DNA of 64,000 nucleotides, taken from positions 1 to 64,000 of the forward strand of contig NZ_JAAGPD010000001.1 of assembly GCF_017104565.1 (NCBI RefSeq), given 5' to 3'. Below the pieces are notes generated by a model. That model was not told the DNA's origin. It worked only from the letters and a program-made list of their open reading frames with translations, and did not search any database. Positions within the stretch are counted from its first letter, which is position 1. Every line of letters starts with the position of its first letter. Positions 5,252-26,000 of the stretch are shown here, piece by piece. A program made the translations under genes and the position numbers. Source of the stretch: Paraburkholderia sp. Tr-20389 (lineage in GTDB: Bacteria; Pseudomonadota; Gammaproteobacteria; Burkholderiales; Burkholderiaceae).

Positions 5252-5847
5252 GCGAGCCCGAGGTTCGATAGCCGTTCGCTCAATGCCGCGCGCAATTCGT
5301 CGAGCGAGCGCGCGACGGTCGTATGTTCGATGCGCGCAAGCCGTTCGACGTTTTCGAGTTCGATCGTGCGCGGCCGCACTTCGACCCATTCGTGCGGGCT
5401 TTGCGTGATCACGCTCGGCTCGGTGTCGCACGCGAAAACGATGCCGGGCACGCATTGCTTGCCCGCTTGCGCGTAGAGATTGGTCGGCAGCGTGTCGGAG
5501 ATGCCGAACGCGCATTTGGCAACGGTGTTGCTGGTGGCGGGCGCAATCACGACGGTGTGATAGATGCCTTCGTACAGCATGCCGACGGGGACGCTGCTCG
5601 CGCTGTTGTCGCGCACCACGCGAAAGTGCTCGCGCAGCTTCGGCACGGTCCAGCCGTACAGCGGCAACACTTCCTCGCCGGCGGCGGACAGAAAGAGATC
5701 GACGCCCGGCAGCGCGAGCGCAATGGCGACCGACTCCTCCAGCATGTGGCCGGAGCCCGTGATGCACCACGCAAAGCGCGCGTCGGGGCGAAACTCGCCA
5801 GGACGGCGGACGGGCGACGGCGCGCTCATGCGTGATTCATCGGCCAT
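5230..5847 (-). CDS. dmrB: Flavoprotein, dihydromethanopterin reductase
   Basis: FMN-binding flavoprotein of the family whose Burkholderia xenovorans member DmrB reduces dihydromethanopterin to H4MPT, the last step of cofactor synthesis. Visible flavoprotein signatures are a glycine-rich ITGSGHMLEES near the N terminus and APATSNTVAKCAFGISDTL in the middle (cofactor loop). About 205 residues from ATG 5847; an internal ATG at 5829 (MSAPS) is a possible start that would avoid the 11-bp overlap with the upstream regulator. Its 3' end overlaps the dihydropteroate-synthase-like gene. The symbol rests on family and context. Confidence 0.85.
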   Translation of the reverse strand: MADESRMSAPSPVRRPGEFRPDARFAWCITGSGHMLEESVAIALALPGVDLFLSAAGEEVLPLYGWTVPKLREHFRVVRDNSASSVPVGMLYEGIYHTVVIAPATSNTVAKCAFGISDTLPTNLYAQAGKQCVPGIVFACDTEPSVITQSPHEWVEVRPRTIELENVERLARIEHTTVARSLDELRAALSERLSNLGLAWNTSSS

Positions 5848-7942: not shown

Positions 7943-8277
7943 TAGGGGCGTCTCCGATGCGCTGGGCTCGGTGCTCGCCATGATGCCGGTGAGCGGGGCG
8001 GCCTACGCTGTATGTAAGTGTTTTCCCCGTGTGCTTCCCGTGTGCCTTTGTGTGCCGCGCGTCTCTCGCGCGCGTGGCGCAACCGCTGACGTATGTTCTT
8101 TGAATCCGATCCGGCGCACTCAGCGAACACTGTACAACCCGTGTCGCGATACATCAATAAATAGTCGTACGAGTGTTGCGCACTGCGCCTGCTTTTTGCT
8201 TTGCATCATCCGGCATGAAAACCGAATTCGATCGAACGATGCGCGTTGCACGCGCGGTCTCTATGCGGAGCCCTTAC
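7943..8277. other. Intergenic region between divergent regulator and FolB-like gene
   Basis: About 335 bp without a supported gene. Both flanking genes point away, so promoters for each are expected here. I see ACAC-N10-GTGT (around 8129-8146) and a CTGACGTATGTTC stretch (8087-8099) faintly like the dyad found upstream of xoxF, but no convincing -24/-12 element. Confidence 0.4.
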
Positions 8278-8748
8278 ATGGACCGTTTCAATCCGGGAAG
8301 CAGTCCCATCCATTTTACTGTCGTGTTGCCGTCGAGCGCTCGGCCCGCGCGCGAACCTGAGGAACGGCGGCACAGTGGCGCCGCACTCGATATCGTGTAT
8401 ATCGAAGGCTTCGCCGCGCAGACGGTCATCGGCATCGATACCGATGAACTGCACGAACCTCAGCCCGTACAGATGGATCTTGCGATCGGCGTGCCGTCGC
8501 TGCGCGCGTGCAAGACGGATCAGATCGGCGACACGATCAATTACGCGGCCGTGCGCGCCGAGCTGCACACGCTGCTCGCAACACACAAGGTCCAGCTGCT
8601 CGAGGCGCTGGCCGAACGGATCGCGCAGTTGCTGATCGACCGGTTCGGCGCGCATTGGGTGCGCGTGAAGCTGTGCAAGCCCGCCAAATTCGACGACGTC
8701 GCAGCCGTTGGCGTGATCATCGAGCGGCAGTGCGAACGCTTCGACTAG
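8278..8748 (+). CDS. Dihydroneopterin-aldolase-like protein (FolB family)
   Basis: 156 residues starting at ATG 8278, which has GGAG 7 bp upstream; longer readings to 8173 lack such a site. FolB fold signs: IEGFAAQTVIGIDTDELHEPQPVQMDLAIGV at the N-terminal core, DTINYAAVRAEL, LLEALAERIAQLL, and the conserved lysine region VRVKLCKPAKF. FolB cleaves dihydroneopterin to 6-hydroxymethyl-dihydropterin, a precursor of both folate and methanopterin. Being inside the H4MPT cluster, this copy probably feeds H4MPT rather than being the housekeeping folate enzyme. It has an unusual N-terminal extension of about 35 residues. It stands alone on the plus strand. Confidence 0.85.
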   Translation: MDRFNPGSSPIHFTVVLPSSARPAREPEERRHSGAALDIVYIEGFAAQTVIGIDTDELHEPQPVQMDLAIGVPSLRACKTDQIGDTINYAAVRAELHTLLATHKVQLLEALAERIAQLLIDRFGAHWVRVKLCKPAKFDDVAAVGVIIERQCERFD

Positions 8749-8811
8749 TTTCGCCTGAAGGGCACGCATCGCCCGTGCCCGGTTGCTGAGCGGGAGCGTG
8801 GACTCAGCTGC

Positions 8812-9225
8812 TCACTTCGACGCGGAAGGCGAGGGCTTCGCGAGCCCGCACGCCTGATACGCCTCCTGCTGCAACGCGCGATATTTCTTCGTCTGCGCAC
8901 GCGCACGGTCGACGCGGAATTCGTTGCCGCCTTCGCCGCCGAGCGCCGCGTACTTCGAGAAGGTCATCTGCTCGACGTAATCGTCATACGGGAGTGCGGC
9001 CGCGATCTTGTCGATCGCGCACGAGCACTTGTAGACGTTGGCGAAGTCGTGGCCGTTCTCGTCCATGCAGCCGAGCACGTATTCGACGCGGCCCTGCGTC
9101 GGGTAGTCATTGCCCTTGGCGGGCGCATTGTCGGCCGTGGCGTCCGCGGCCAGCGCGGCAAGCGGAATTACTGCAACGCACGCGAACGCCGCGACAGCGA
9201 GGCGCGTGCGACAACGTGAGGTCAT
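8812..9225 (-). CDS. Small exported protein downstream of fae
   Basis: 136 residues, start at ATG 9225 because a typical signal peptide follows (MTSRCRTRLAVAAFACVAVI, cleavage near ALAA/D). The mature part is predicted helical and carries three cysteines in GCMDENGHDF and YKCSCAIDKI, plus one near the C terminus (YQACGLAK), which could form disulfides in the periplasm. It lies 139 bp downstream of fae on the same strand, separated by a perfect 16-bp hairpin. I do not recognise a defined family. Context suggests an accessory role in periplasmic methanol oxidation, but that is only inference. Confidence 0.75.
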   Translation of the reverse strand: MTSRCRTRLAVAAFACVAVIPLAALAADATADNAPAKGNDYPTQGRVEYVLGCMDENGHDFANVYKCSCAIDKIAAALPYDDYVEQMTFSKYAALGGEGGNEFRVDRARAQTKKYRALQQEAYQACGLAKPSPSASK

Positions 9226-9289
9226 ATCGATGCCTTTAGCGTAAGTTCTGCATCCCGCTCCCGGAGTACGCACGGGAGAAACACGCGCG

Positions 9290-9364: not shown

Positions 9365-9874
9365 CTAGTTCGGGGCGAACGGGTGTGCCGCGCTGCCCTT
9401 CTTCGACACCACTTCGGCGGCGCTCGGCTCGCCCGCTACCGCGCGCTGGAGCGCTTCGCGAGTCGCCTTGTAGTTGAACTCCTGAATCTTCTTGTCGTCG
9501 TCGGCTTCCCAGTGGATGAAGACGCCGACGCAGATGAACACGTCGTCGGCTTCGTCCTTCGGAATCGTGCCGTCTTCGACGCAATCCGCGACGGCGAGCG
9601 CCACGGCGTGCTGCGCCGGGCCGAACATCTGCACGGCCTGCTTGGCGCCCTTGATCGTCACCTTGTTGAACATCACGGTATTGGGTTTTGCCATCAGGTT
9701 CGGTGCGACGACGGCGAGCAGCGACGTGAAGCCGTCCTTGTTGTTGGTGAGCGCGTGGCAGAAGGCGGATTCGGCGGCAGAGCCTCGCGGCCCGATGATG
9801 AGATCGATGTGAGCGACTTCGTTGCCTTCACCGATAAGCGACTCGCCTACCAGGACGCGGTTGATCTTGGCCAT
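9365..9874 (-). CDS. fae: Formaldehyde-activating enzyme
   Basis: Condenses formaldehyde with H4MPT to methylene-H4MPT in the cytoplasm, the entry step of the pathway. 169 residues, the normal length for a stand-alone Fae. Characteristic stretches: [54 protein letters not shown], and the active-site histidine region in EVAHID. ATG 9874 has a strong GGAGG 8 bp upstream. A longer upstream reading to 10129 is rejected. A sigma-54-like promoter lies about 100 bp upstream (9975-9990). Downstream is the small exported gene. Confidence 0.97.
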
Positions 9875-9974: not shown

Positions 9975-9990
9975 AACAGGAACCGTGCCA
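9975..9990 (-). promoter_or_regulatory. Sigma-54-like -24/-12 promoter for fae
   Basis: Minus-strand reading TGGCACGGTTCCTGTT. The -24 half (TTGGCACG with the preceding T) is a perfect consensus match. The -12 half reads CTGTT instead of TTGCW, keeping GG-N10-G spacing. It lies in the 134-bp gap between the CitG-like gene and fae, 100 bp from the fae ATG, and a cognate-type activator is encoded 2 kb away. No good copy of the 20-bp dyad was found upstream. Confidence 0.5.
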
Positions 9991-10008: not shown

Positions 10009-10884
10009 TCAAACAGGGGTAATTGCCAGGCGTTGCGGGTCGATCAGTGCACCGGCGAAGAGCGCAGCGACAGTCAGGTCGGCGCTCGTGCCTGGGTTGA
10101 CGCCTCGCGCCTTCAGTTCGGCATCCCATGCTTCGAGCTGCGCGGCATGTGCTTCAGGCCCGGCAACGCGCGCTTGCGCGTGACGCTCGCGTGCCTCGCG
10201 CGTGACACTTTGCGCCAGCGTCTCGCCATGTTTGCGCAGTATGTGCGAGTCGGGCCACGCGCCGAGGAAGGTCAGGAACACGTCGAGCGTGAGCGCGGTC
10301 GCCGTCGTGCCCTTCGAACGGGCGAGGGCGTCGAGGCCCGCGCCGAAGATATCCGCGAAGCCGTTCGCGTATTGGCGTGCGATGCTGTCGCGTCCGGCGG
10401 CCAGCGACATGGCAGCGCGCAGATCGACCGTGGGCGGCGCGTGGACGGATTGCTCGGGCGCGTCGCCGAGTCCGCCCGGATTGGCGAGCGCAATCGCACG
10501 GTAGGCGGCGCGCGCATCGTCCAGGTCGAGCGTCGACAGCACCTGTTCGACGGCGGCTTGCCAGTGCGCGGCGTCGAGCGTTGCCGTGCGTTCCAGCGCG
10601 GCTGCCAGCGGCGCGACCAGCAGAACGATGCCGAGATTCGTGTTGCACCCGGCGATCTGCCGCGTGCGCGTCACCGCTTCGAGGATGCGCGTGCCGACGC
10701 TGGCGCCGCGCGCGAACAGCGCGGGCGCGGCTGCCTGCGCGCTGTCGATGAACTGCGCGGCCTGCATTCCGTGTCCCGCGCTCGCGACACTCACGTTGCC
10801 CGGTTTCGCCGTTTCGACGTCCAGCCGGCACGCGAGCAGAAACGCGTCGCGGGCGCGCGCGAGAAGCTCGTCAGCGGCCTGCAT
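10009..10884 (-). CDS. CitG-like (triphosphoribosyl-dephospho-CoA synthase family) protein of the H4MPT cluster
   Basis: 291 residues, all-helical CitG/MdcB fold: [33 protein letters not shown], the Gly/Asp-rich middle, and [31 protein letters not shown]. True CitG makes the 2'-(5''-triphosphoribosyl)-dephospho-CoA prosthetic group. Members of this family recur in H4MPT gene clusters without citrate lyase, so here it probably transfers a (phospho)ribosyl group or otherwise serves in H4MPT assembly; the reaction is not established from sequence. It overlaps the ATP-grasp gene upstream by 14 bp and is the last gene of the mtdB-mch operon. Confidence 0.85.
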
Positions 10885-11872
10885 GGAGCGGCGTGACAGG
10901 CAGCGACGGCGCGCCGCTCGCGGCGAGCTTGCGATCGAGCAGATCGTCGACGAGCGCTGCCGCGATATCGACGGGCGTCACCGATTGCAGCCCGCGCCAC
11001 GCCGCGACGCCGTTTACTTCAAGCACGAGCGGCACGCCGGTCTGGTCGGGCGTCGACAGATCGGGGATCAGATCGACGCCGGCGTAATCGAGGCCGAGTG
11101 CAGCCGTCGCACGCTCGGCGAGGCCCGCGAGCGTCGGATCGAGGTCGGCCGGTTCGCAGCGCGCGCCGCGCGCGACGTTGTGAATCCAGCCGCTGCCGCC
11201 GGTTCGCCGCATCGCAGCAACCGCGCGTCCGCCGATCACGAGCACGCGCCAGTCGTAGCCTCGATGACGCACGCGAGTACTGCCGACGAAACGCTGCAGA
11301 TACGCGACCTCGCTGTAGCTGCGCAGCGGCGGCAGCGGTTTCAATGCGCCGTTGGCGGGACTCGCGCCGAGCCGCCGCAAGCCTTTGCCCTGCGAGCCGA
11401 ACAGCGGCTTGAGCACAACCTGACGCGCGGCAGCCGTCTCGCGCATCAGCACGCGCTGCGCAAACGCCGCTGATTCCGTCGCCCATGCGGGCGGCGTCGG
11501 CACGCCCGCGCGATGCAGCAGGAAGCTCGTCATGGACTTGTCGACGCTGCGCTCGATTGCCCGCGCATCGTTGTAGACGGGCACGCCGCACTCGCGCAGC
11601 GCGTGCAGGATGCCGAGGCGCAGCGTGACCTGCTCGAACGTGCCGCCCGCGATGCCGCGCACGAACACCGCATCCGGGAGATCGCGCGCGAAGCCGGGAA
11701 TCGCGAGTCCGTACTGCGACCATGACGTATCGATGCGGCACGCGGCCAGATCGACGCAACGCGCCTCGACGCCGCGCGCCCGAAACGCCTTCTTGAGCCG
11801 GCCCGTGTGCCAGCCGGTTTCGTCCGTCATGATCGCAACGCGCAGGCCGCTTGCCGATGACAGATCGCTCAT
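10871..11872 (-). CDS. ATP-grasp (RimK-like) ligase of the H4MPT cluster
   Basis: 333 residues from ATG 11872, which overlaps the mch stop as ATGA. RimK-type ATP-grasp signs: ERSVDKSMTSFLLHRAGVPTPP, VVLKPLFGSQGKGLRRL (phosphate-binding loop), YLQRFV, YDWRVLVIGGRAVAAMRR, and LVLEVNGVAAWRGLQ with the metal-binding E-x-N. Such ligases join a carboxyl group to an amine using ATP; the archaeal MptN that glutamylates H4MPT is the same fold. A peptide-like ligation on the H4MPT side chain is a reasonable guess, but the substrate is not proven. Confidence 0.87.
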   Translation of the reverse strand: MSDLSSASGLRVAIMTDETGWHTGRLKKAFRARGVEARCVDLAACRIDTSWSQYGLAIPGFARDLPDAVFVRGIAGGTFEQVTLRLGILHALRECGVPVYNDARAIERSVDKSMTSFLLHRAGVPTPPAWATESAAFAQRVLMRETAAARQVVLKPLFGSQGKGLRRLGASPANGALKPLPPLRSYSEVAYLQRFVGSTRVRHRGYDWRVLVIGGRAVAAMRRTGGSGWIHNVARGARCEPADLDPTLAGLAERATAALGLDYAGVDLIPDLSTPDQTGVPLVLEVNGVAAWRGLQSVTPVDIAAALVDDLLDRKLAASGAPSLPVTPLHAGR

Positions 11873-12972
11873 GGCGCCCCCGGTCCCGTGACGCCCGGCG
11901 TGGTCGACGACGCCGATGCTTCGCCCGTCGCACCAAATGCATCGCCTTGCCAGAGCGTGTGCAGCAAGGCGGCATCGAGCCTGCCGCCCCGATAGGTCAC
12001 GCCGCTTTCCAGGCTGCTCGCCCACACTTCGGCGGGCGCGAACAGCGACGGATCGATCTGATAGAAGTCGTGGTTGAACGACGCGAAGATGTCGGCGAAC
12101 GGCCGCCCGTAGTCGCGCGAATTCGACGACGGCAACTCAGCCGCGAGCCGCCGCGCCACGGCGTCGCTACGCACGGTCAGATGCACGCGCCCGCCATAGA
12201 GGATCGCGTCGTTCGTGCGGCCCATCGCGGCGAGTCCGTCGGGCGCGGGCGGCGGCAGCGGCGCGGTGCCGCTCGCCTCGACGATCTCGCCGAGCGGCAC
12301 GCCGAGTACATGCGTCTTGTGCAGCGCGACTTCGACCACGCGCGCGACAACCTGCACCGTGCCGGCGACCGACTGGGTCGGCGTGACGATGACCGTCAGC
12401 CGGTCGGGTGCGAGACCGCAATCGCCGGCGATTTTTTCCAGCACCGCTTGCGGCGGCAACTGGCCGACTTCCATCACCAGCACACCAGCGTCGTGCCGAT
12501 CGCGATAGCCGAGTTCGTCGAACAGCGTTTCCTTACCGGCCAGCGCGCGCGCCGGTCCCGAGCCGAGCGAGAAGAACTTCTTGCCGTTGTTCTGCTCCTT
12601 GCTCGCGGACAGGCTCCAGCCCGCGTACTGGCTGCCGAGGCACGCGAGCACGGGCGAGGCCGTGTGCACGTCGATCATCGCGGGCCACAGCGGCTCGTGT
12701 TCGGCGCTGATGCGCGTCTCGATGCGTCCGAGGCCGCCCATGCAGATGCGCGCGATCGTCACGCCCGCTTCGACGCAGCCGGGCGATGCGATGCCTGCAT
12801 CGACGATGGTCGGGCCGAAGGCATGGCGCGACGATGCCACGCGCAGCCGCGCGGCGTCCGCGAGCAGTTGCGCGACGAGCGGCGCGGCGAGCGCGTTGAC
12901 GCTGGGCGCGTCGCCGGCGATGGGCGGCGGCGCGTTGCCGCCATGTTCAGCCGTGGGAGTCGACGAGTTCAT
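11869..12972 (-). CDS. mch: Methenyl-H4MPT cyclohydrolase
   Basis: Hydrolyses methenyl-H4MPT to N5-formyl-H4MPT, between MtdB and the formyltransferase/hydrolase complex. 367 residues; the first 25 or so are a low-complexity extension (AEHGGNAPPPIAGDAP). Family signs: FGPTIVDAGIASPGCVEAGV, CMGGLGRI, HTASPVLACLGSQYAGWSL, the central FFSLGSGPARALAGKE, and SSNSRDYGRPFADIFASFNHDFYQIDPSLFAPAEVW near the end. The start overlaps the upstream ATP-grasp gene by 26 bp and the stop overlaps the next gene's ATG, so the operon is tightly coupled. Confidence 0.97.
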   Translation of the reverse strand: MNSSTPTAEHGGNAPPPIAGDAPSVNALAAPLVAQLLADAARLRVASSRHAFGPTIVDAGIASPGCVEAGVTIARICMGGLGRIETRISAEHEPLWPAMIDVHTASPVLACLGSQYAGWSLSASKEQNNGKKFFSLGSGPARALAGKETLFDELGYRDRHDAGVLVMEVGQLPPQAVLEKIAGDCGLAPDRLTVIVTPTQSVAGTVQVVARVVEVALHKTHVLGVPLGEIVEASGTAPLPPPAPDGLAAMGRTNDAILYGGRVHLTVRSDAVARRLAAELPSSNSRDYGRPFADIFASFNHDFYQIDPSLFAPAEVWASSLESGVTYRGGRLDAALLHTLWQGDAFGATGEASASSTTPGVTGPGAP

Positions 12973-14170
12973 GGGCAGGCTCCGTGCTGGTTTCGATGCG
13001 TTGCAAAAGGCGCTGCGTATGGCGTTGCAGTTCGTGCATCAGGACGGCGCGCGAAGCGGCCGCGTCGACCGTCACGAGCACTGTGCAGACCGGATGGCCC
13101 GCTTCGATACGCGTGCCCGCGTGCGGAATGTCGTGACAGACGGGATCGACGAACAGCGCGTCGCTGAAACGCCGTGTGACCGTGAATGCATGAGGCGCGA
13201 ATACGACCTGTTGTGCGGCACGGCATTGCGGCGCACCGACGCGGGCAGTCGGCAGACGGCCATGCAGGCAGGCGTCGATGTGCGCGGCGAGCAGGCCGCG
13301 CGGCCACGCGTCGCGCCATGCGCGTTCGTATAAAGCCATCGTCGACGACGGCCGCGCGTTGACTTCGAGCACGCGGATCGCGTCGCCGTCGAGCAGGAAG
13401 TCCAGGCTGTTGATGCCGACGAGATTCGCACGTGCCGTAATCGAACGTACGACACGATCGACCTGCTGCGCGATGTGCGCGGGCAGATCGACGGGGCCGA
13501 GCGAGCCCACGTGCAGATAGGGCAGCGCGCCGCTCGTGATGTGAAGCTGCTCCGCATGGCCGATCACGCACGCTTCGCGCCGCGCGGCGATGAAGAGCGC
13601 CGACATCGACAGTCCTTTGCCTACGCGCTGGAAGTAGCCGGAATGTGCATCCGTTTGCCCTGCTGGAAGGATATGCGTGCCGCCGCAGCCGTCGGCGGCT
13701 TTACGCAGCCAGCCTTCGGGTTGCGCGGGACGCTCGAAAGCGATCTCAGGGTGCGCGAAGCCCAGCTCGCCGAGCAATGCGAAGAAGCGCGCGGGATCGC
13801 GCACGGCCGCCGTCGCGTCCGCGTCGTTGCCGATCAGGCGCGGCAGTCTTGCCGTGTCGTGCAACCAGCCGATGTGCGGCTCGATACCGCTGCCGGCGAT
13901 ATAACCAGTCAGACGCGGCAGCCGCGCCACGCGGTCGAGTGCCGCGTGCAGCTTGGCGCGATCGAGCGACAGCCCGCTGCCGCCGGTATCGAGCCACAGC
14001 TTCGCGTAACGGCGCGTGTCGCGATCGCCGAACAGGTCGAGCGCGGCTACCTGATAGCCGGCATCCGCGGCGGACTGTGCAAGCATGCGCGCCGACAGGC
14101 CGACCACCGCGACGAACGGCGCGGAAGCGGACGGGTGCGAGCGGCTGCCGCTCGCGGACGTCGCCGGCAT
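12947..14170 (-). CDS. Second ATP-grasp protein of the H4MPT cluster
   Basis: 407 residues. N-terminal Rossmann-like half (VAVVGLSARMLAQSAADAGYQVAALDLFGDRDTRRYA), then an ATP-grasp core: GWLRKAADGCGGTHI (nucleotide loop), SMSALFIAARREACVIG, and GINSLDFLLDGDAIRVLEVNARPSSTM (metal ligands D, E and N). A C-terminal domain of about 100 residues resembles biotin-carboxylase-like wings. Genes of this type are found beside mch and mtdB in methylotrophs and are thought to act in H4MPT synthesis; the substrate is unknown. It lies 19 bp after mtdB and overlaps mch. Confidence 0.85.
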   Translation of the reverse strand: MPATSASGSRSHPSASAPFVAVVGLSARMLAQSAADAGYQVAALDLFGDRDTRRYAKLWLDTGGSGLSLDRAKLHAALDRVARLPRLTGYIAGSGIEPHIGWLHDTARLPRLIGNDADATAAVRDPARFFALLGELGFAHPEIAFERPAQPEGWLRKAADGCGGTHILPAGQTDAHSGYFQRVGKGLSMSALFIAARREACVIGHAEQLHITSGALPYLHVGSLGPVDLPAHIAQQVDRVVRSITARANLVGINSLDFLLDGDAIRVLEVNARPSSTMALYERAWRDAWPRGLLAAHIDACLHGRLPTARVGAPQCRAAQQVVFAPHAFTVTRRFSDALFVDPVCHDIPHAGTRIEAGHPVCTVLVTVDAAASRAVLMHELQRHTQRLLQRIETSTEPAHELVDSHG

Positions 14171-14189
14171 GATGATGCCTCGCTGCGCG

Positions 14190-15116
14190 CTAGCTGCGTT
14201 CGGCGACGACGGCGCGCGCTTCGTCGAACGCTTCCGTGAAGCCGAGATACGCGGGCTTGCCGGCCGTGCGCATCCGCGTGAACAGCCGATGCTCGACCTG
14301 ATACTTCACATTGCCGATCGCGAGCGCGCCAATGCCGATCGCATCGGGCCGCACGGCGCCCGCGAGCGGTTTGCCGTCGTCCATCACGTTGACGCCCGCG
14401 ATGCCTTCGGGCGGCACCGCGTTGACGTCGGCGGCGATCAGCAGACGCGGCGCCTGCGCGAGATCGGCGGCGCCCGTCACCTGCACGCCGGCCGCCGCCG
14501 TCGCGAAGACGATATCGGCGTGTGCAAGCGCCGCATGCAGCGTCGATGGTGTGCCCGTGCCGACGCCGGAAGTCTTGATGCCGAAGCGTTCGTCGACGTC
14601 GTGGCTCGCGCGCTCGGCACGCGCAGCGTCCGAATGGCTCGCGATCGCGACATGCGCGCCGAGGGTCGCGGCGATGGCGGCAGTGACGCGCCCGACGGCG
14701 CCCGTGCCGCCGAGTATCAGCACGTGCTTGTCCTTCAGTTCTTCGCCGTACTGCGCCTTCAGGTGATGTTCGACGAGCGCGACGAGCGCCGCCGATGTCG
14801 TATAGGCGCCGCTCGGGTCGGCGAACACGGAGACCTCGAACGGCGGAACCATCGCTTCGCGCGCGCGGTCGAGCATGTCGGCGGCGAGCATCACGTCGCG
14901 CCCGCCGATGAAGATGCCCGTGCGCGACACGCCTTTCGGGCCGCGCGAAAAGATCGCGTCCTGGGTCAACTGCACGACGTTGCGCACGTCGACGTCGCAG
15001 TACGGCACGAGAATCTGATAGCCGGCGTCGGCGGCCATGTTGACGTCGAAGGGGCTCATCTGCGGCGTCGGGGTGAACATATGCAGGATGTAGGGCCTTT
15101 CAGTGGTTTGGGACAT
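14190..15116 (-). CDS. mtdB: Methylene-H4MPT dehydrogenase
   Basis: Oxidises methylene-H4MPT to methenyl-H4MPT with NAD(P)+. 308 residues. The N-terminal segment HMFTPTPQMSPFDVNMAADAGY is typical of the MtdA/MtdB family, and a Rossmann motif VLILGGTGAVGRVTAAIAATLG lies near residue 130. The H4MPT context (mch, fae, beta-RFAP synthase) argues for MtdB rather than the tetrahydrofolate-preferring MtdA. It is followed by ATP-grasp, mch, ATP-grasp and citG-like genes with tiny gaps or overlaps. Upstream, 90 bp separate it from the beta-RFAP synthase gene, so one transcript from the sigma-54 promoter at 16352 could cover all six. Confidence 0.95.
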   Translation of the reverse strand: MSQTTERPYILHMFTPTPQMSPFDVNMAADAGYQILVPYCDVDVRNVVQLTQDAIFSRGPKGVSRTGIFIGGRDVMLAADMLDRAREAMVPPFEVSVFADPSGAYTTSAALVALVEHHLKAQYGEELKDKHVLILGGTGAVGRVTAAIAATLGAHVAIASHSDAARAERASHDVDERFGIKTSGVGTGTPSTLHAALAHADIVFATAAAGVQVTGAADLAQAPRLLIAADVNAVPPEGIAGVNVMDDGKPLAGAVRPDAIGIGALAIGNVKYQVEHRLFTRMRTAGKPAYLGFTEAFDEARAVVAERS

Positions 15117-15206: not shown

Positions 15207-16274
15207 TTACTGCGCGTCGATGCCGAAGCGCGGTTGCTGGACGGCGTAATAGCGCGCGCCGCAATTGCGGCCGCGCGTCACGGAACACACGATGCCGGGA
15301 AACGCGCGCGTCGCCGCGCGGGCTGCGGCGAGTGCGTCGTCGGCGTGGCGCGAGCTCTGAACGAACGCGAAGCCCGTCGGGCCCCACGAGCTTTGTCCGA
15401 CGCCCGCTGTCTGGTTCGCCGCGATGGCCTGCATCGCGGCCGCGACGGCGGGGCTCGAATACACGCCGCCTTGCACGGGCGCGAAGTATTCGCCGATCGA
15501 TTGCTGGATCTCGCTGACGCCGGCAGCGAATGCGTCGAAGTCGCCTTGCGCCATGCCGGGCAGCACGCGCATCAGCAACTGATGGCAGACCTCGGCGGCG
15601 AGCGTGTGCGGGAAGGGCGGCAGCGCGGCGAGGCCGCGCTTCTCTTCGTCGCCGTGCAGACCTTCGCGCGTGGTGTCGTCGATCAGCACGATGCGCCAGT
15701 CGTCGGGAAACGGCTGGCGCGCGAGCAAGGGCGGCAGCGCGGCGGCGCTTTTGGGCGCGGTACTGATCGAGGCGGCCGTCGCCGCACGGCCCTGGCCGCC
15801 GTCGACGATCAGCCCGCCGTGATCGAATCCGAGCACGCCGATGCCGGAGCGCGCGCCGCGTCCGAGCCGTTGTGCGAGTTCCGCCGTCGTCGCCGCGATG
15901 CCGGCGAGCCGCGCATACGCAGTGCCGACCGCGAGCGCGAGTTGCGTGCCCGAACCGATCCCGCAATGCGCGCGCGCTGCCTGCTCGACTTCGAGCGATA
16001 CAGCGGGTCCGCCATAGGCGTCGTGCAACAGCGCGAGATAGCGTTCGATGCGCTCGCGCTGCGCATCCGTGGATGCGCCTTCGACCTGGGTGTCATCGGC
16101 GTGCCGCGCTGTGACGCGCGTGCCGCATCCCTCGATGACGATGCCGATGCTGCCGAACGCGCGTCCGAGCGATCCGTTGGGATCGAGAAAGCCCATATGC
16201 AGCCGGCCGGGCGCTTCGACGGTGATCGCCGAGATGGCAGGCAGTGTCGACGTGCGTTCGGATGACATCGGCAT
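15207..16274 (-). CDS. mptG: Beta-ribofuranosylaminobenzene 5'-phosphate synthase
   Basis: First committed enzyme of H4MPT synthesis: joins 4-hydroxy- or 4-aminobenzoate to phosphoribosyl pyrophosphate. 355 residues, GHMP-kinase fold: APGRLHMGFLDPNGSLGRAFGSIG, CGIGSGTQLALAVGTAYARL, GIGVLGFDHGGLIVDGG, and GVGQSSWGPTGFAFV near the C terminus. The start is taken at 16274 (GGAAG about 9 bp upstream); the methionine two codons later is an alternative. Longer readings to 16490 cross the sigma-54 promoter and are rejected. It is probably the first gene of the mtdB-mch operon. Confidence 0.93.
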   Translation of the reverse strand: MPMSSERTSTLPAISAITVEAPGRLHMGFLDPNGSLGRAFGSIGIVIEGCGTRVTARHADDTQVEGASTDAQRERIERYLALLHDAYGGPAVSLEVEQAARAHCGIGSGTQLALAVGTAYARLAGIAATTAELAQRLGRGARSGIGVLGFDHGGLIVDGGQGRAATAASISTAPKSAAALPPLLARQPFPDDWRIVLIDDTTREGLHGDEEKRGLAALPPFPHTLAAEVCHQLLMRVLPGMAQGDFDAFAAGVSEIQQSIGEYFAPVQGGVYSSPAVAAAMQAIAANQTAGVGQSSWGPTGFAFVQSSRHADDALAAARAATRAFPGIVCSVTRGRNCGARYYAVQQPRFGIDAQ

Positions 16275-16351
16275 GCGATAGCTTCCTTGTCGAATCGTGT
16301 ATGCGCGGGCGCGGCCGCGCGGGCTGACGCGACTGCACCCGTCGACGTCAG

Positions 16352-16366
16352 GCAAGAGGCGTACCA
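16352..16366 (-). promoter_or_regulatory. Sigma-54 promoter for the beta-RFAP synthase/mtdB operon
   Basis: Minus-strand reading TGGTACGCCTCTTGC: GG-N10-GC spacing is exact and TTGC at -12 is perfect; one -24 base differs (T for C). It lies 78 bp upstream of the chosen start, and a conserved dyad (16446-16465) sits about 80-100 bp further upstream, the classical layout for an activator-dependent promoter. Confidence 0.75.
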
Positions 16367-16445
16367 CGCGCGACGCCGCGCGGATTCGCGCGCATCGGCC
16401 GAACCATGCGCCGCGTGCGGTCGATGCGCGTGCAGCACGGCGCGC

Positions 16446-16465
16446 GACATCGCGTGTCAGATACG
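16446..16465 (-). promoter_or_regulatory. Candidate enhancer (UAS), copy 1 of a 20-bp dyad
   Basis: Minus-strand reading begins CGTATCTGACAC and ends ATGTC, with a GACA-N5-TGTC core. It matches 17 of 20 bases of the copy upstream of xoxF (17060-17079). It is centred about 100 bp from the -12 element of the sigma-54 promoter at 16352. Confidence 0.72.
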
Positions 16466-16551
16466 GCACAGCGCAAGCCGCCGCCGCCACGGGCTGTCAC
16501 GCATGGCACGATGCCGCGCGTTCGCAGCGATAGCGAACGCTGGACGCTGCG

Positions 16552-16938
16552 TCAGCCCTTCGGCGTGTCGTACTTGATATAGCGGAAGCGCTGATCGTCC
16601 GCGGGCGTCCCTTCGAGCGGGCCGCCTTCCTTACCCGGCTGCCACTGGATCACTTCCTCGATCTTGCGCGCGAGCGCGAAGTCCTTGTCAGTGATGCCCT
16701 TCGCCGTATGCGTCTTCAGCTTCACGACGACAAACGCATACGACACCGTCAGATCCGGGTGATGCCACGCCGCTTCCGCCAGATGGCCGACGGTGTTGAC
16801 CACCATCAGCGTGCCTTTCCAGCTTTCCGTGCGGTACTTGCGACGCAGCCAGCCGTCTTCGAGATACCAGTGCTGCAACGGACCTTCGAGTTTCTTCTGG
16901 ACTTCCTCGTCGGAATACACCTGTTCGCTTTGCGTCAT
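16552..16938 (-). CDS. Pterin-4a-carbinolamine dehydratase-like protein
   Basis: 128 residues with the PCD/DCoH signature: AEAAWHHPDLTVSYAFVVVKLKTHTAKGIT, which contains the HHP motif and the later histidine in THTAKGIT, followed by DFALARKIEEV. PCD dehydrates 4a-hydroxytetrahydropterins to recycle them. No aromatic amino acid hydroxylase is adjacent; the gene lies between the beta-RFAP synthase and xoxF, so a role in H4MPT recycling or repair is suggested. It is about 15-20 residues longer at each end than typical PCDs. ATG 16938 has GGAGG a few bases upstream. Confidence 0.85.
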   Translation of the reverse strand: MTQSEQVYSDEEVQKKLEGPLQHWYLEDGWLRRKYRTESWKGTLMVVNTVGHLAEAAWHHPDLTVSYAFVVVKLKTHTAKGITDKDFALARKIEEVIQWQPGKEGGPLEGTPADDQRFRYIKYDTPKG

Positions 16939-17059
16939 GACGAACCTCCGCTCGTGTCGTGAGAGGGGAATCGCACGGGAAACCTCGCGCCCCGTGCGCC
17001 TTGCCAACCGGGCCTGCCGCGCGTGCCAATGCGCCTGCTGCACGCCGTCCTGCGAATTG

Positions 17060-17079
17060 CGTATCTGACACAGTATGTC
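17060..17079 (+). promoter_or_regulatory. Candidate enhancer (UAS), copy 2 of a 20-bp dyad
   Basis: Reads CGTATCTGACAC...ATGTC with a GACA-N5-TGTC core, identical at 17 of 20 positions to the copy at 16446-16465. It lies about 70-85 bp upstream of the sigma-54-type promoter for xoxF, in the same orientation relative to the promoter as copy 1. Confidence 0.72.
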
Positions 17080-17145
17080 CCGCCGCACGTCGCGAAGCGC
17101 AACACGTTGACGCCGGGAGGCCGTGTGGCGGCGGTCAAACGCGAC

Positions 17146-17160
17146 CGGCATGGAATATGC
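17146..17160 (+). promoter_or_regulatory. Sigma-54-type promoter for xoxF
   Basis: Reads CGGCATGGAATATGC: GG-N10-GC spacing is exact, with GGCA at -24 and TGC at -12. Two bases deviate from TGGCACG-N4-TTGC in the -24 half and one in the -12 half. It lies 146 bp upstream of the xoxF ATG, leaving a long leader. Confidence 0.6.
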
Positions 17161-17305
17161 GATCCGCCGTCATACGCATGGGCCGGGCAATGGATCCGGC
17201 GCAGCAAAGGCGTTACCTGCATCCAGAGGCGCGGCTGGAGCGACCCGGTAGCGTGTCATCGGTAACTGGACGGTTTCAACCAGTATCACCCATTCTGGAG
17301 GAGAC

Positions 17306-19126
17306 ATGAACGTACGCACCCTGGTTCTTGGACTGGCGGTGTTGGTTGCGACGGCGCTGAACTCGTTCCTTGCGTATGCCGATCCGCAACTGGACTCGCT
17401 GATCAAGAACCCATCGAACTGGGCGGCGCAGGCAGGTGACTATGCGAATCACCGGTACAGCCCGCTCAAGCAGATCAATGAAAGCAATGTCGGCAAGTTG
17501 CAGGTCGCCTGGACGATGTCGACGGGCGTGCTGCGCGGTCACGAAGGTTCGCCTCTCGTGATCGGCGACACGATGTACATCCACTCGCCGTTCCCCAACA
17601 AGGTCATCGCGATCAACCTGAAGGATCAGACCTTCATCTGGCAATACGAGCCGAAGCAGGACGCGTCGGTGATCTCCGTGATGTGCTGCGATACCGTCAA
17701 CCGCGGTCTCGCGTACGGCGACGGCAAGATCTTCCTGCAACAGGCCGACACCAAGCTCGTCGCGCTCAACGCGAAGACGGGCGAAGTGGTCTGGACCGCG
17801 CAAAACGGCGATCCCAAGGCAGGCGAGACCAACACCAACGCGCCGCACGTGTTCGGCGACAAGGTGCTGACGGGCATCTCCGGCGGCGAGTTCGGCGTGC
17901 GCGGCCGTCTGATCGCGTACGACATCAAGACCGGCAAGGAAGCGTGGAAGGCCTACAGCACCGGGCCCGACAACGAGATGCTGCTCGACCCGCAGCAGAC
18001 GATGACCTGGGCAGACGGCAAGATGCAGCCCGTCGGCGCCGATTCGTCGATCAAGAGCTGGAAGGGCGATCAGTGGAAGCTCGGCGGCGGCACCACATGG
18101 GGCTGGTATGCGTGGGACCCGAAGCTGAATCTTGTCTACTACGGCACGGGCAATCCGGGCACATGGAATCCGACGCAGCGTCCCGGCGACAACAAGTGGT
18201 CGATGTCGATCTTCGCGCGCGACCTGAATACGGGCAAGGCGAAGTGGGTCTATCAGATGACGCCGCACGACGAGTGGGACTATGACGGCGTCAACGAAAT
18301 GATCCTGGCCGACATCGCGGTGAACGGCAAGAAGACGCCCGCCATCGTGCACTTCGACCGTAACGGCTTCGGCTATACGCTCAATCGCGAGACAGGCGAA
18401 CTGCTGGTTGCACAGAAGTACGACCCGGCCGTGAACTGGGCGGATAGCGTCGACCTGAAGAGCGGACTGCCGATTCGCAACGCATCGTACTCGACACAGA
18501 AGGCAGGTCCGGACCACAACGTGAAGGGCATTTGCCCGGCTGCGCTGGGTTCGAAGGACCAGCAGCCTGCGTCGTTCGATCCGGGCTCGAATCTGTTCCT
18601 CGTGCCGACCAATCACGTCTGCATGGACTACGAGCCGTTCGATGTCGATTACGTGTCCGGCCAGCCGTATGTGGGCGCGACGCTGTCGATGTATCCGGGT
18701 CCGAACGAGAAGGGCGCGATGGGCAATTTCATCGCGTGGGATGCGGCCAAGGGCAAGATCGTCTGGTCGAAGCCGGAACGCTTCTCGGTATGGTCGGGTG
18801 CGCTGGCGACGGCAGGCGGCATCGTCTTCTACGGCACGCTGGAAGGCTACATCAAGGCCGTGCGCATCAAGGACGGCAAGGAACTGTGGAAGTTCAAGAC
18901 GCCGTCGGGGATCATCGGCAACGTGTTCACGTATGAGTATCAGGGCAAGCAGTTCGTCGGCGTGTATTCGGGCATCGGCGGCTGGGCAGGCATCGGCATG
19001 GCAGCGGGCCTGCAGAAGTCGACGGAAGGCCTCGGTGCAGTCGGCGGCTATCGCGAGCTGGCGAAGTACACGGCGCTCGGCGGCACGCTGTTCATCTTCG
19101 CCATTCCGGGTGGATCGAACGGCTGA
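17306..19126 (+). CDS. xoxF: PQQ- and lanthanide-dependent methanol dehydrogenase
   Basis: Periplasmic eight-bladed propeller enzyme oxidising methanol (and possibly formaldehyde), passing electrons to cytochrome XoxG. 606 residues with a signal peptide (cleavage near AYA/D, residue 25). PQQ-site signs: vicinal cysteines Cys127-Cys128, metal ligands Glu195 and Asn283, catalytic Asp325 in DEWDYDG, and, decisively, a second aspartate Asp327 two residues later where calcium enzymes (MxaF) have alanine. That Asp is the lanthanide hallmark. ATG 17306 follows GGAGGAG. No mxaFI genes are present, so methanol oxidation here appears to depend on XoxF. It is followed by xoxG and xoxJ. Confidence 0.97.
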
Positions 19127-20754: not shown

Positions 20755-21560
20755 TGGGCGCCTGTGCAGCAGACGTACGCGTTCGCACGCGTGCGTTTGC
20801 GTTGCGCGGCGTGGCTGCGCTGACGGTGCTCGCTGCTGTGTCGATGACGTTGCCGCAAGCGGCGCATTCCGCCGATGCGGCTAGTGGAGCCAGCGGAGCG
20901 GAGGCGCCCATTGCGCCCGCCGAAAAGCTGCTGTTTCTCACGCCGCATCTGCATGGCGTCGCGTCGCAGACGGAACTCGACTATGCGCTCGTCGTGACAG
21001 CGCCGCCCGACAAGCAGACGGACCGGGTCCGCGTGCTCGTCGCGAGCGCCGACAACGCGAAGAGCGACGCCTCCGTCAGCGATGCGAGCGGCAAGGTGCA
21101 GTTGCCTGAGAACCTGCCGTGCAACCCTGTGATCCTGTATTTTCTCGAGCGCGATATCGCGGAAATGGAGCAGGCGACGGGCGGTCAGCGGCGCTATTTC
21201 CAGCAGCGCGTGCGACTTGCGCTGGCCGCGAGCCCACCCATCACGGACGCCACGGTCCAACTGGACGGCAAGACCGTGAGGGCGCGCAAGATCGTGATCC
21301 AGCCGTATCTGCACGATCCGAACGCGCAGCGCTTTCCGAAGTTCACGAGCAAGCGCTATACGTTCGTGCTCGCCGACGGCGTGCCGGGCGGCGTGTCGCT
21401 GTTGCGCACCGATGTGCCCGGCGACAACGACGACTTCGCGCATCCGCAGAAGACGGAGTCGTTGAGCTATGAAGGCTCGCTGCACAAGTTGCAGCCGCCT
21501 GCGCAGGGCAAGCCGTCTTCACCGCCGGCGACACCCAACGCGCCGCGCGCGAGCCGCTGA
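20751..21560 (+). CDS. Exported protein of the xox operon, function unknown
   Basis: 269 residues; ATG 20751 overlaps the xoxJ stop. A signal peptide is present (ALRGVAALTVLAAVSMTLPQAAHSA), so the mature protein is periplasmic. The body has no motif I can assign: it contains LPCNPVILYFLERDIAEMEQATGG, RKIVIQPYLHDPNAQRFPKF and a Pro/Ala-rich tail. Tight coupling to xoxJ suggests a maturation or assembly factor for XoxFG, but this is inference from position alone. Confidence 0.8.
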   Translation: MMGACAADVRVRTRAFALRGVAALTVLAAVSMTLPQAAHSADAASGASGAEAPIAPAEKLLFLTPHLHGVASQTELDYALVVTAPPDKQTDRVRVLVASADNAKSDASVSDASGKVQLPENLPCNPVILYFLERDIAEMEQATGGQRRYFQQRVRLALAASPPITDATVQLDGKTVRARKIVIQPYLHDPNAQRFPKFTSKRYTFVLADGVPGGVSLLRTDVPGDNDDFAHPQKTESLSYEGSLHKLQPPAQGKPSSPPATPNAPRASR

Positions 21561-21627
21561 ATCCGTCGATGTCTGGTGTGGCGACAGGCAGCATGCCCGC
21601 TGCCTGTCGCTATGCGCATGGGAACGC

Positions 21628-22614
21628 ATGATGAACCTGATCCGCTCGCTGACGCTCAGGCAATTGCAGATCTTCGTGATCGCAAGCCGCTTGCCGAGCT
21701 TTGCGCGTGCGGCGGAAGAATTGCATCTGACGCAACCGGCCGTGTCGATGCAGATTCGCCAGCTGGAGGAGGCGATCGGCATGCCGCTGTTCGAGCGGAT
21801 CGCGCGGCGCCTCTCGCTGACAGAAGCGGGCGAGCGGTTGTCGCATCACGCAAGCCGCATTCTTGGCGAGATCAAGGATGCCGAAGACACGATGACTTCG
21901 CTTGCTCAGGCCGATAGTGGGTCGATTGCGGTGAGCATCGTGAGTTCGGCGACTTACTTTGCGCCCAAGTTGCTTGCGCAGTATTCGAAGCAGTATCCGA
22001 AGGTCGATGTGCATTTCTCCGTCGGCAATCGGGAGACGTTGTTGCGGCTGCTGCAGGACAACGCGACCGATCTCGCGATCATGGGGCGGCCGCCGCCTGA
22101 ACTCGGCACGACGGCCGAACCGCTTGCTTACCATCCACATGTGATCATCGCACCTGTGACGCATCCGCTGCGCGATGCGCGGCGTTTCGATATGCAGGAG
22201 CTTGCGGGGGATACGTTCTTGTTGCGCGAGCCTGGGTCGGGGACGCGGGCTGTTGCCGAGCATACTTTTCGGCAGCATCTTTTTACGCCTTCACGGTGCG
22301 TGACGCTCGGCAGCAATGAGACGATCAAGCAGGCTGTGATGGCGGGCATGGGGGTCAGTCTTATCTCGTTGCATACGCTTGCGCTGGAATTGCGGACGCG
22401 GGAGATTGCTCTGCTCGATGTCAATGGGACGCCCGTTGAGCGGACCTGGCAGATCGTGCATCTGGCTTCCAAGCAGCTGTCGCCGACTTGTGTGACCTTT
22501 CGGAGGTTTTTGCTCGAGCATGCTGAGCCGTTTCTTGAGGCGGAGTATGCGGAGTTTGTTGCCGCGTTGTCTGCGCGGCGGGGGCCGCGGAGTGCTAAGG
22601 GTGGGGTGTTGTAG
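21628..22614 (+). CDS. LysR-family regulator, CbbR-like
   Basis: 328 residues. N-terminal winged helix-turn-helix TLRQLQIFVIASRLPSFARAAEELHLTQPAVSMQIRQLEEAIG, which closely resembles CbbR, followed by a LysR effector-binding domain. Two adjacent ATGs (21628, 21631) follow a GGGAA site. CbbR proteins regulate Calvin-cycle genes in response to metabolites; phosphoribulokinase and FBPase are 20 kb away on the same island, so it could regulate those, the xox operon, or both. The last 400 bp become visibly richer in T and G-T than the rest of the gene, at the border of the accessory region. Confidence 0.88.
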   Translation: MMNLIRSLTLRQLQIFVIASRLPSFARAAEELHLTQPAVSMQIRQLEEAIGMPLFERIARRLSLTEAGERLSHHASRILGEIKDAEDTMTSLAQADSGSIAVSIVSSATYFAPKLLAQYSKQYPKVDVHFSVGNRETLLRLLQDNATDLAIMGRPPPELGTTAEPLAYHPHVIIAPVTHPLRDARRFDMQELAGDTFLLREPGSGTRAVAEHTFRQHLFTPSRCVTLGSNETIKQAVMAGMGVSLISLHTLALELRTREIALLDVNGTPVERTWQIVHLASKQLSPTCVTFRRFLLEHAEPFLEAEYAEFVAALSARRGPRSAKGGVL

Positions 22615-23059: not shown

Positions 23060-26000
23060 ATGAATCAGAGAAGCCATCGGCTGGTATTCAGCAGACTGAG
23101 AGGCATGCTGATCGCGGTCGAGGAAAGCGCGACGGCTTCCGGAAAATCGGCCGGCGAAACACGCGTCTCCGGACGCGCATCGCGGAAGACAACCCACTCA
23201 CCACTGCAACGCCTGGCGGCACTGCTGCCCGCCGTGGCGCCGCTTCTGGCGTTCGCGCAGATCGTTCCGGGCGGCGCGCACGCGCCCAACGTCATCCAGA
23301 CACCGAACGGTCTTGAACAGGTGAACATCAATCGCCCGTCTGGCGCGGGCGTGTCGGTCAACACCTACAACCAGTTCGACGTACAGCAGCGCGGCGCGAT
23401 TCTGAACAATTCGCCTACGATGGTGCAGTCGCAACTCGGCGGCATGATTAACGGCAATCCGAACTTTGCACCGGGGCAGGCCGCGAAGGTCATCGTCAAC
23501 CAGGTCAACAGCGCAAGCGCATCGCAATTCAACGGCGCGCTCGAAGTCGCGGGCCAACGCGCGAACGTGGTGTTGGCAAATCCGTCAGGGATTTCTGTCA
23601 ACGGTGGCGTATTTATCAATACGAGTCGCGCGACCCTGACAACCGGCACACCGAACTATGCGGCGGACGGTTCGGTGTCGGGCTTCAATATCACAGGCGG
23701 CAACATCACGGTCAGCGGCGCCGGTCTGAACGCGTCGAACGTCGATCAGGTTGATTTGCTGTCCCGCGCCGTGCAGGCCAATGCGGCTGTCTACGCGAAG
23801 GCGAACCTGAACGTCGTGACTGGCGCGAACAGCGTTGATTACAACACGCTCAACGCCACGCCGATTGCGGGCGATGGCGCGGCGCCGGGTGTCTCGATTG
23901 ACGTTAGCAATCTCGGTGGAATGTACGCCAACCGCATCCAGTTGGTCGGGACGGAATTGGGCGTCGGCATTTCACTCAAGGGCATCACGGCTGCGCAATC
24001 GGGCGACCTCGTGCTGACTACGGCGGGCAAGCTGGTATTGGCCGGCCAGACCAACGCGAGCGGCAACATCAACGCTTCCGCGCACGACGGCATCGACAAC
24101 AGCGGCACCACCTACGCACAGCAGAACGTCAACGCGACGACATCGGGCGCGCTCACCAACAGCGGCACGTTCGTCGCGCAACAGAACACCAGCATCAGCG
24201 CGGGCAGCGTCGCATCGACGGGCACGCTGGGCGCCGGCGTGAACAGTAGCGGTTCGGTCGGCAACGCGGGCGACCTGAATGTTGCGACGACCGGCCAGTT
24301 GAGTGCGACCGGCTTGAACGTGGCGGGCGGCAATGCAACGCTCGCGGGTGGTGGCGTCAATCTCGCGGGCAGCAAGACGGCGGCGAACGGCAATCTCGCG
24401 CTGAACGCCCGCGCGGGCGACCTCAACCTTGCCGGCGCAACCACGAGCGCCGGGGGCACAGTCAATGCACAGGCGACGGGCGCACTGATCAACGACAACG
24501 GCACGATGACGGCGAATGCCGTCACGCTGAACGCGGGCAGCCTTTCGAACCAGGCAGGCAACGTTTCGGCACAGGGGCCGCTCAGCGCTACCGTGGCGGG
24601 CAACGTGTCGAACCAGGGCGGCCAGTTTGTTTCGCAGGGTGCGATGCAGATTCGCGGCGGCACGGTCTCCAACTACCAGGGGACCATGCAGAGCGCGGCG
24701 GGTTTCGGACTGTACGCGGCCTCGCTGGACAATACGGCGGGCCGCATCACATCATTGAACGGCGACGGCCTGAACCTCGGCATCACGGGCACGCTGCTGA
24801 ACGGCATCGGCGGCGTGATCGGCGGCAACGGCAACGTCGGCATCAGTGCCTACACCCTCACGAACGCAGGCCAGTTCAGCGCGGTCGGCGCGCTGGCCCT
24901 CTCGGCGTCGAGTCTGGTCAACAGCGGAACGGCCACGGCGGGCGGCGCCCTCACGGCCACCGCAACCGGCGCGCTCTCCGACGCAGGCGGCACGCTCTCG
25001 GGTGCGACCGTCGCGGTCACGGGCGCATCGATCGACAACACGAAGGGCAACATCAACGGGAATGGGGTTGCGGTTTCGACACCGGGCGACCTCATCAACC
25101 AGGGCGGTGCGATCACGCAATCGGGGACGAGCGCGCAGACGGTCAGCGCGGGCGGCAAGCTCGACAATTCGAACGGCGGCCAGATCGCGTCGAACGCCTC
25201 GAACCTGAGCGTCACGGCCGCACAGGTCGATAACGATACGGGTGCCATCACCCACGGCGGCACCGGCACGCTGGCGATCAACGCGGGCAACGGCACGGGT
25301 GCAATGTCGAACGTGGGCGGCACGGTGACCAGCAACGGCAACGTCGTCGCGCAGGCCGGCGCGTTCAACAACACGAACGGCTCCGTTTCCGGCCAGGGCA
25401 GCGTCACGGCGATGGTCGGCGGCGCGCTGGACAATACCGGCGGCAAGGTCCTGTCGAATACCGACCTGAGCGTGACGAGCGGCACGCTCACGAACGACAG
25501 GGGGCAACTCGGCGCCGGGGCGAACGAAACCATTCACACCGGCTCGATGACCAGCATCGGCGGCAAGATCGTTGCGCCGGACCTGTCCATCACGACGACC
25601 GGCACGCTGGACAACAGCGCGGGCGATATCGAGGCGAACCAGCTTGCGCTCTCCGCCACGGACCTCCTGAATCGCGGCGGCTCGATCACGCAGTATGGCG
25701 CTTCGGCAATGGGCTCCAGTGTCAGCGGCACCTTCGATAATTCGAATGGCGGCACGCTGCAGACCAACAGCACGGATTTCAGTCTCACGCCCTGGGCCAT
25801 CAACAACAACGGCGGCTCGATCCTTCACGCCGGAACGGGCACGTTCACGCTGTCGCCGGGCAACGGCGCGGGCACCTTCACGAACGTGGGCGGCCAGCTC
25901 ATCACGGCGGGCCAGCTCATTGCGCACGCGGGGAATCTCGACAACACCACGGGCGTGCTGGCGGCACGCGGGAATATCACGGCCATCATCGCCGGAGGCG

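Follow-up and report, generated by a model that had tools for sequence, protein, structure and literature searches.

How bacteria that rely on XoxF control this enzyme is poorly known, and the locus described here raises the question of whether, and by what means, expression of xoxF is tied to that of the H4MPT genes beside it. The initial annotation of the window (the whole 64,000-nucleotide stretch of DNA that was analysed) had proposed a single-activator regulon, in which a 20-bp dyad shared by two upstream regions, sigma-54 promoters and an activator encoded in the same island link xoxF to the H4MPT operon.

A conserved island carries xoxF, H4MPT genes and a sigma-54 activator

The minus strand of the island carries the sigma-54 activator gene, a gene for a small secreted-looking protein, fae, a citG-like gene, two ATP-grasp genes, mch, mtdB, mptG and a PCD-like gene, and the plus strand carries xoxF, a cytochrome c gene, moxJ and a CbbR-like LysR gene. 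The genes referred to below are:

5837-7981, minus strand: sigma-54 activator with the layout GAF-PAS-AAA+-HTH_8 (Pfam); GAFTGA was found and GQTGTGK is readable in the translation
9365-9874, minus strand: fae, formaldehyde-activating enzyme (TIGR03126)
10009-15116, minus strand: remaining H4MPT operon (citG-like, RimK-like ATP-grasp, mch, ATP-grasp, mtdB)
15207-16274, minus strand: mptG, beta-RFAP synthase, which leads the H4MPT operon (TIGR00144 above cut-off, NF040726 below cut-off)
16552-16938, minus strand: PCD-like pterin dehydratase gene, divergent from xoxF (NF002017; reading frame)
17306-19126, plus strand: xoxF, PQQ methanol dehydrogenase (TIGR03075)
21469-22614, plus strand: LysR (CbbR-like) gene

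A PQQ alcohol dehydrogenase with an extra aspartate (DYD) is a lanthanide methanol dehydrogenase; the XoxF encoded here has the DYD motif at residue 325 (WDYDG) which, together with the TIGR03075 match, assigns it to the lanthanide type. As had been claimed, the island encodes its own sigma-54 activator. The protein has a Sigma54_activat domain, a Walker A motif, the GAFTGA loop and a C-terminal HTH, which places it among the enhancer-binding proteins, and its gene lies within the conserved part of the island. The window's genome has two sigma-54 genes.

We searched 145 genomes of the window's genus for mptG (E <= 0.001) and found a match in 75, one of which (G043) is weak and contains stops. 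Stretches around 60 of the 87 mptG places were examined, and 48 of these are this island with the same gene order (activator-fae-citG-mch-ATP-grasp-mtdB-mptG-PCD on one side, xoxF-cytc-moxJ-LysR on the other), giving 49 islands when the window is included. Among the 48 relatives the activator is absent from view solely in L064, whose contig ends before the activator position. The activator also stays with xoxF in L170 and L171, where mtdB is the sole H4MPT gene in the stretch examined, and in L172, where the 20 kb examined hold no H4MPT gene. The other 12 of the 60 stretches (L075-L086) hold a different, second H4MPT cluster; all 12 contain CbbR, FBPase and PRK, and 11 contain a paralogous activator. 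The cluster of the window's own genome (L075, C19:954500-974400) encodes a paralogue 57% identical to the island activator. A palindrome, GTGACACAGTGTCAC, was seen near mptG of the second cluster in two relatives (L078 and L084).

Several further features were noted along the way. The small secreted-looking protein (8812-9273, minus strand) has several cysteines and gave no Pfam match, and its gene adjoins that of the activator in L172 as well. The plus-strand frame at 8173-8748, which diverges from the activator, reads like a dihydroneopterin aldolase (FolB), and the minus-strand ORF at 8206-8769 is probably no gene. Downstream of the island, 23060-32146 (plus strand) encodes a 3028-aa filamentous-haemagglutinin-like two-partner secretion protein.

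Sigma-54-type promoter elements precede xoxF and mptG

The initial annotation had placed sigma-54 promoter elements upstream of xoxF and mptG, and both are found where it put them. A third, sigma-54-like element lies upstream of fae:

17146-17160, plus strand: xoxF -24/-12 element CGGCATGGAATATGC; GGCATGGA(A/T)TATGC in 47 of 49 islands
16352-16366, minus strand: mptG -24/-12 element TGGTACGCCTCTTGC; TGGTA(C/T) element in 49 of 49
9975-9990, minus strand: fae sigma-54-like element TGGCACGGTTCCTGTT; GG-N10-GT in 48 of 49

The xoxF and mptG elements have GG at -24 and GC at -12 with ten bases between, and the xoxF elements of L054 and L064 are variants that retain GG-N10-GC. The upstream regions of xoxF fit a strict sigma-54 pattern in 47 of 49 cases and those of mptG in 41 of 48 (49 of 49 for mptG under the looser TGGTAY pattern), as against 0-4 of 43-49 for each of nine other island genes. 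Upstream of fae, TGGCAYG-N5-TGTT is present in 48 of the 49 islands; this element departs from GG-N10-GC by having GT at -12, and we therefore call it sigma-54-like only. The PCD gene has a looser match in 21 of 49. A somewhat looser pattern applied to other genera gave matches for xoxF (15/18), mptG (13/14), fae (7/14) and PCD (6/15), with 0 or 1 match for each control gene except mtdB (4/16). Among 116 distinct upstream sequences, which had been picked by their leader (see below), 114 have the -24/-12 element. The set of promoters thus holds for xoxF and mptG and is wider than first claimed, taking in sigma-54-like elements at fae and, in some clades, at PCD.

It is conservation that makes the xoxF and mptG elements convincing, not their match to a consensus. 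Allowing up to two mismatches, TGGCAC-N5-TTGC has 76 matches in the window compared with 82 expected, and the xoxF element is missing even from that list. Consensus scoring of sigma-54 sites without conservation was uninformative and was set aside. No sigma-70-like promoter was found in 16250-17320, which says little because just 0.1 was expected.

A putative activator site is conserved upstream of xoxF

Two related sites lie upstream of these promoters:

17060-17079, plus strand: putative activator site (UAS) of xoxF, with the core TGACACAG(T/A)ATGT at 17066-17078
16446-16465, minus strand: second, lineage-specific copy of the site, upstream of mptG

The reported match between the two 20-mers is real, CGTATCTGACACGCGATGTC on the mptG side and CGTATCTGACACAGTATGTC on the xoxF side being identical at 17 of 20 positions, and the gap from site to promoter element is 79 bp for mptG and 66 bp for xoxF. 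With up to three mismatches, the joint pattern CGTATCTGACACNNNATGTC occurs twice in the window, exactly both times, where 0.15 matches were expected. The genome search that had been suggested for this motif gave 16 matches in 9.0 Mb at the same tolerance, exact at the two island sites only; the 14 others each carry three mismatches, and a reversed-pattern control gave five. GACA-N5-TGTC by itself was dropped as a motif, since it is too common: the window holds three against 1.1 expected, a number reached in 9 of 100 shuffles, and the genome holds 93 compared with 44 for the reversed control. The second H4MPT cluster was also checked, and a shared site there was ruled out, as nothing better than matches with three mismatches was found.

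Conservation differs sharply between the two sites. The core TGACACAG(T/A)ATGT precedes xoxF in all 49 islands (48 in the main comparison, and L064 by a separate pattern listing), and TGACACAGNNTGT is present in 113 of the 116 distinct upstream sequences chosen through their leader. On the mptG side, only 7 of 49 islands, namely the window and six close relatives, keep at least 10 of the 11 dyad positions (0 of 245 shuffles), and 9 of 49 keep nine or more. These nine all fall among the 22 islands with a gap of at least 225, and none among the 27 with shorter gaps. A conserved mptG-side dyad was therefore rejected outside the window's clade, and we regard the xoxF-side site as the ancient one, as its distribution suggests, and the mptG-side copy as a lineage-specific second site. 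The consequence for the proposed regulon is that its sigma-54-type promoters at xoxF and mptG, its linked activator and its island-specific 20-mer stand, while the shared dyad falls away as the conserved basis, because a strong mptG-side copy is present in 7 of 49 islands and the mptG promoter element in 49 of 49.

At xoxF, the spacing between site and promoter varies widely, while the promoter lies 151-160 bases from the start codon in the 47 islands measured, the pattern expected if an enhancer and a promoter are followed by a leader of constant length.

Many copies of TGACACAGAATGT occur outside the island in other genomes. Of eight such loci considered, three are island copies, and the five non-island loci all lie inside stop-to-stop frames of more than 150 aa, weak evidence in DNA this rich in GC. 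L130 and L132 share a frame that resembles DnaE.

A structured RNA leader lies between the xoxF promoter and start codon

The initial annotation overlooked the region between the xoxF promoter and the start codon, which we find to encode a structured leader:

17172-17305, plus strand: structured 5' leader of xoxF, its start placed from the -24/-12 element (alignments A1, A2 and A3)
17211-17217 and 17247-17253, plus strand: arms of leader stem P2
17295-17303, plus strand: Shine-Dalgarno region of the leader

About 135 nt separate the predicted transcription start from the start codon, and this region can be aligned across islands. In alignment A1, whose 47 sequences were selected through the -24/-12 element without regard to the stem, CGTTACC and GGTAGCG never vary and are able to pair. 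Alignment A2 comprises 53 distinct leaders of the Paraburkholderia group, collected by a pattern that required the P2 arms; the invariance of P2 in A2 is thus by construction, and a second set of leaders matters for this reason. With the P1/P2/P3 structure, 90.7% of cells in A2 are paired, falling to 30-38% when the partners are slid, and covariation is 0.201 compared with 0.137, with 0 of 500 shuffles as high. Weaker measures gave 113 of 500 shuffles as high for pair types and 25 of 500 for changes on both sides.

Further support for the structure is provided by alignment A3, consisting of 53 leaders of other genera that were not used in building the model. The share of paired cells in A3 is 92.3%, as against 24-48% with slid partners; these pair counts lean towards the model because the leaders were found with it and fitted to it. 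Covariation is 0.235 against 0.138, again with 0 of 500 shuffles as high, and the weaker measures gave 36 of 500 for both-side changes and 8 of 500 for pair types. P2 is paired in 100% of cells even though four of its seven pairs vary, for example CGCTGCC with GG(T/C)(A/G)GTG. Column shuffles ignore relatedness, for which the slid-partner controls correct. The xoxF leader thus has the covariation-supported helices of a structured RNA. It belongs to no Rfam family that we could detect: a search of 15900-17500 at E <= 10 returned four matches, all of which lie outside 17172-17305 and fall well short of their gathering scores.

When a family sample of 398 genomes was searched with a model derived from A2, the leader turned up in 79, spread over 4 of 25 genera, with one strong match per genome; one of the 79 (G084) is a weak match that we take as chance. 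Of the 399 genomes in an order sample, the model matched two: that of the window and a member of genus g10. A pattern scan of the genus gave at most one close copy of the leader per genome, and the few further matches, whose interior is different, are probably due to chance. Weak model matches at L164 and L165, which lie before genes other than xoxF and have a common Shine-Dalgarno end, were likewise discarded as chance. Of the 74 records matched in the pattern scan, 71 are Paraburkholderia, Caballeronia or Burkholderia and the other three are MAGs under other names; the laboratory strain Paraburkholderia xenovorans LB400 has both the xoxF promoter and the leader.

In the L218 island several H4MPT genes are fragmented, mptG was not found and the activator is split across two frames; it nonetheless has a full-length xoxF match and the leader. 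In L225, L272, L277 and L280 (Candidatus Burkholderia / Paraburkholderia) the xoxF promoter is retained, as is the first arm of leader stem P2.

Folding energy gives no support for the leader model. Six whole leaders had z from -1.08 to 1.36, and against simple shuffles the mean z was -1.8 for P1 (47 distinct sequences) and -0.17 for P3 (40 distinct). The mean pairing probability of P2 was 0.22 in 104 leaders and exceeded 0.5 in 19 of them. Openness of the Shine-Dalgarno region was 0.45 compared with 0.42 in shuffled leaders, so no occlusion switch is evident, and this candidate was dropped. A leader peptide was also rejected: uORFs of at least nine codons are present in 38 of 53 leaders, but those shown vary between groups in start, frame and sequence.

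Discussion

Taken from the DNA sequence, these results make it probable that the island is a sigma-54 regulon, with the activator binding at the putative xoxF site, combined with a cis-acting xoxF leader RNA. Conservation, linkage and covariation are computed here; binding, start sites, the signal and leader function are inferred. We propose that the AcoR-like activator (GAF-PAS-AAA+-Fis HTH) binds the TGACACAG(T/A)ATGT core between xoxF and the divergent PCD gene on sensing a cue from methanol oxidation, which might be an alcohol or formaldehyde. The bound activator would loop to sigma-54 RNA polymerase at the xoxF and mptG promoter elements, probably also serving those of fae and PCD; in the window's clade, mptG has a further copy of the site. 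Transcription of xoxF would start near 17172, and the transcript would carry the leader, predicted to comprise a 5' hairpin (P1) followed by stem P2, 7 bp long, which leads into hairpin P3 with its conserved GGCGC loop, and to end in a strong Shine-Dalgarno sequence. The leader would act in cis to set how stable the xoxF mRNA is or how well it is translated, perhaps responding to a ligand or a protein. The lack of conservation of the mptG-side dyad counts against this regulon, as does the fae element, with its GT at -12 and its 7 of 14 matches in other genera.

The leader more probably controls stability or translation without sensing a ligand. We give about an even chance to the reading that it is a protein-binding or mRNA-stabilising element of this kind, with which a predicted 5' end at or near the P1 stem and a Shine-Dalgarno region no more closed than in shuffles both agree; the conserved GGCGC loop and P2 sequence are left unexplained by such a role alone.

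Another regulator might instead use the dyad, for example the CbbR-like LysR protein, whose gene is likewise conserved in the island, and the promoters might serve a distant or paralogous activator, since a paralogue is present in the genome. Sigma-54 promoters require an AAA+ activator, and the island's own accompanies xoxF even in stretches in which few or no H4MPT genes were seen; we consider this alternative unlikely.

A riboswitch aptamer for a XoxF-linked ligand (lanthanide, PQQ or pterin) would account for the conserved stem and GGCGC loop, the covarying stems and the position of the leader, always before one gene in the islands examined. The pairing of P2, not favoured by energy alone, may also resemble some ligand-stabilised folds. 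Against it stand the single copy per genome in both the genus and family samples, a distribution known from four genera only, no terminator found (0.6 expected) and no occlusion of the Shine-Dalgarno region, and we consider a riboswitch unlikely. That the leader is the first natural RNA sensor of the lanthanide-methanol system, responding to a lanthanide ion, PQQ or a C1 metabolite atop the sigma-54 switch, is likewise unlikely; if true, XoxF would be made only when substrate and cofactor are both present. Chance as the origin of the 17/20 match, with promoters that are consensus noise, agrees with the unremarkable number of sigma-54-like matches in the window and is very improbable given the genome-wide uniqueness of the 20-mer and conservation in 49 islands and further genera.

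The preferred reading, a sigma-54 regulon with a cis-acting leader, offers a putative activator site kept nearly letter for letter across several genera, among relatives of Burkholderia that live in soil or with plants, and a new structured leader, and hence exact bases to mutate. The structured leader is the most novel part of the locus. Our literature searches returned nothing on sigma-54 control of xoxF or on a xoxF leader RNA in these genera; their coverage leaves out most subscription journals, so this absence is no proof. Like riboswitches and other cis-regulatory 5' leaders, the xoxF leader is conserved, covaries and precedes one gene, and it differs from the known ones in matching no Rfam family. 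To our knowledge, the known regulators of lanthanide dehydrogenases are two-component systems. PedS2/PedR2, MxbDM and MxcQE, which regulate lanthanide and calcium PQQ dehydrogenases, are of this type, unlike a sigma-54 enhancer-binding protein. A known sigma-54-controlled PQQ alcohol dehydrogenase shares the type of control proposed here, with a different type of regulator. There is also a likeness to AcoR, BmoR and MmoR, sigma-54 activators of acetoin, butane and methane oxidation, respectively, which also lie beside oxidation genes and share the GAF-PAS-AAA+-HTH layout; the island activator differs from these in its linkage to a lanthanide-type XoxF and the H4MPT pathway and in its putative site, TGACACAG(T/A)ATGT.
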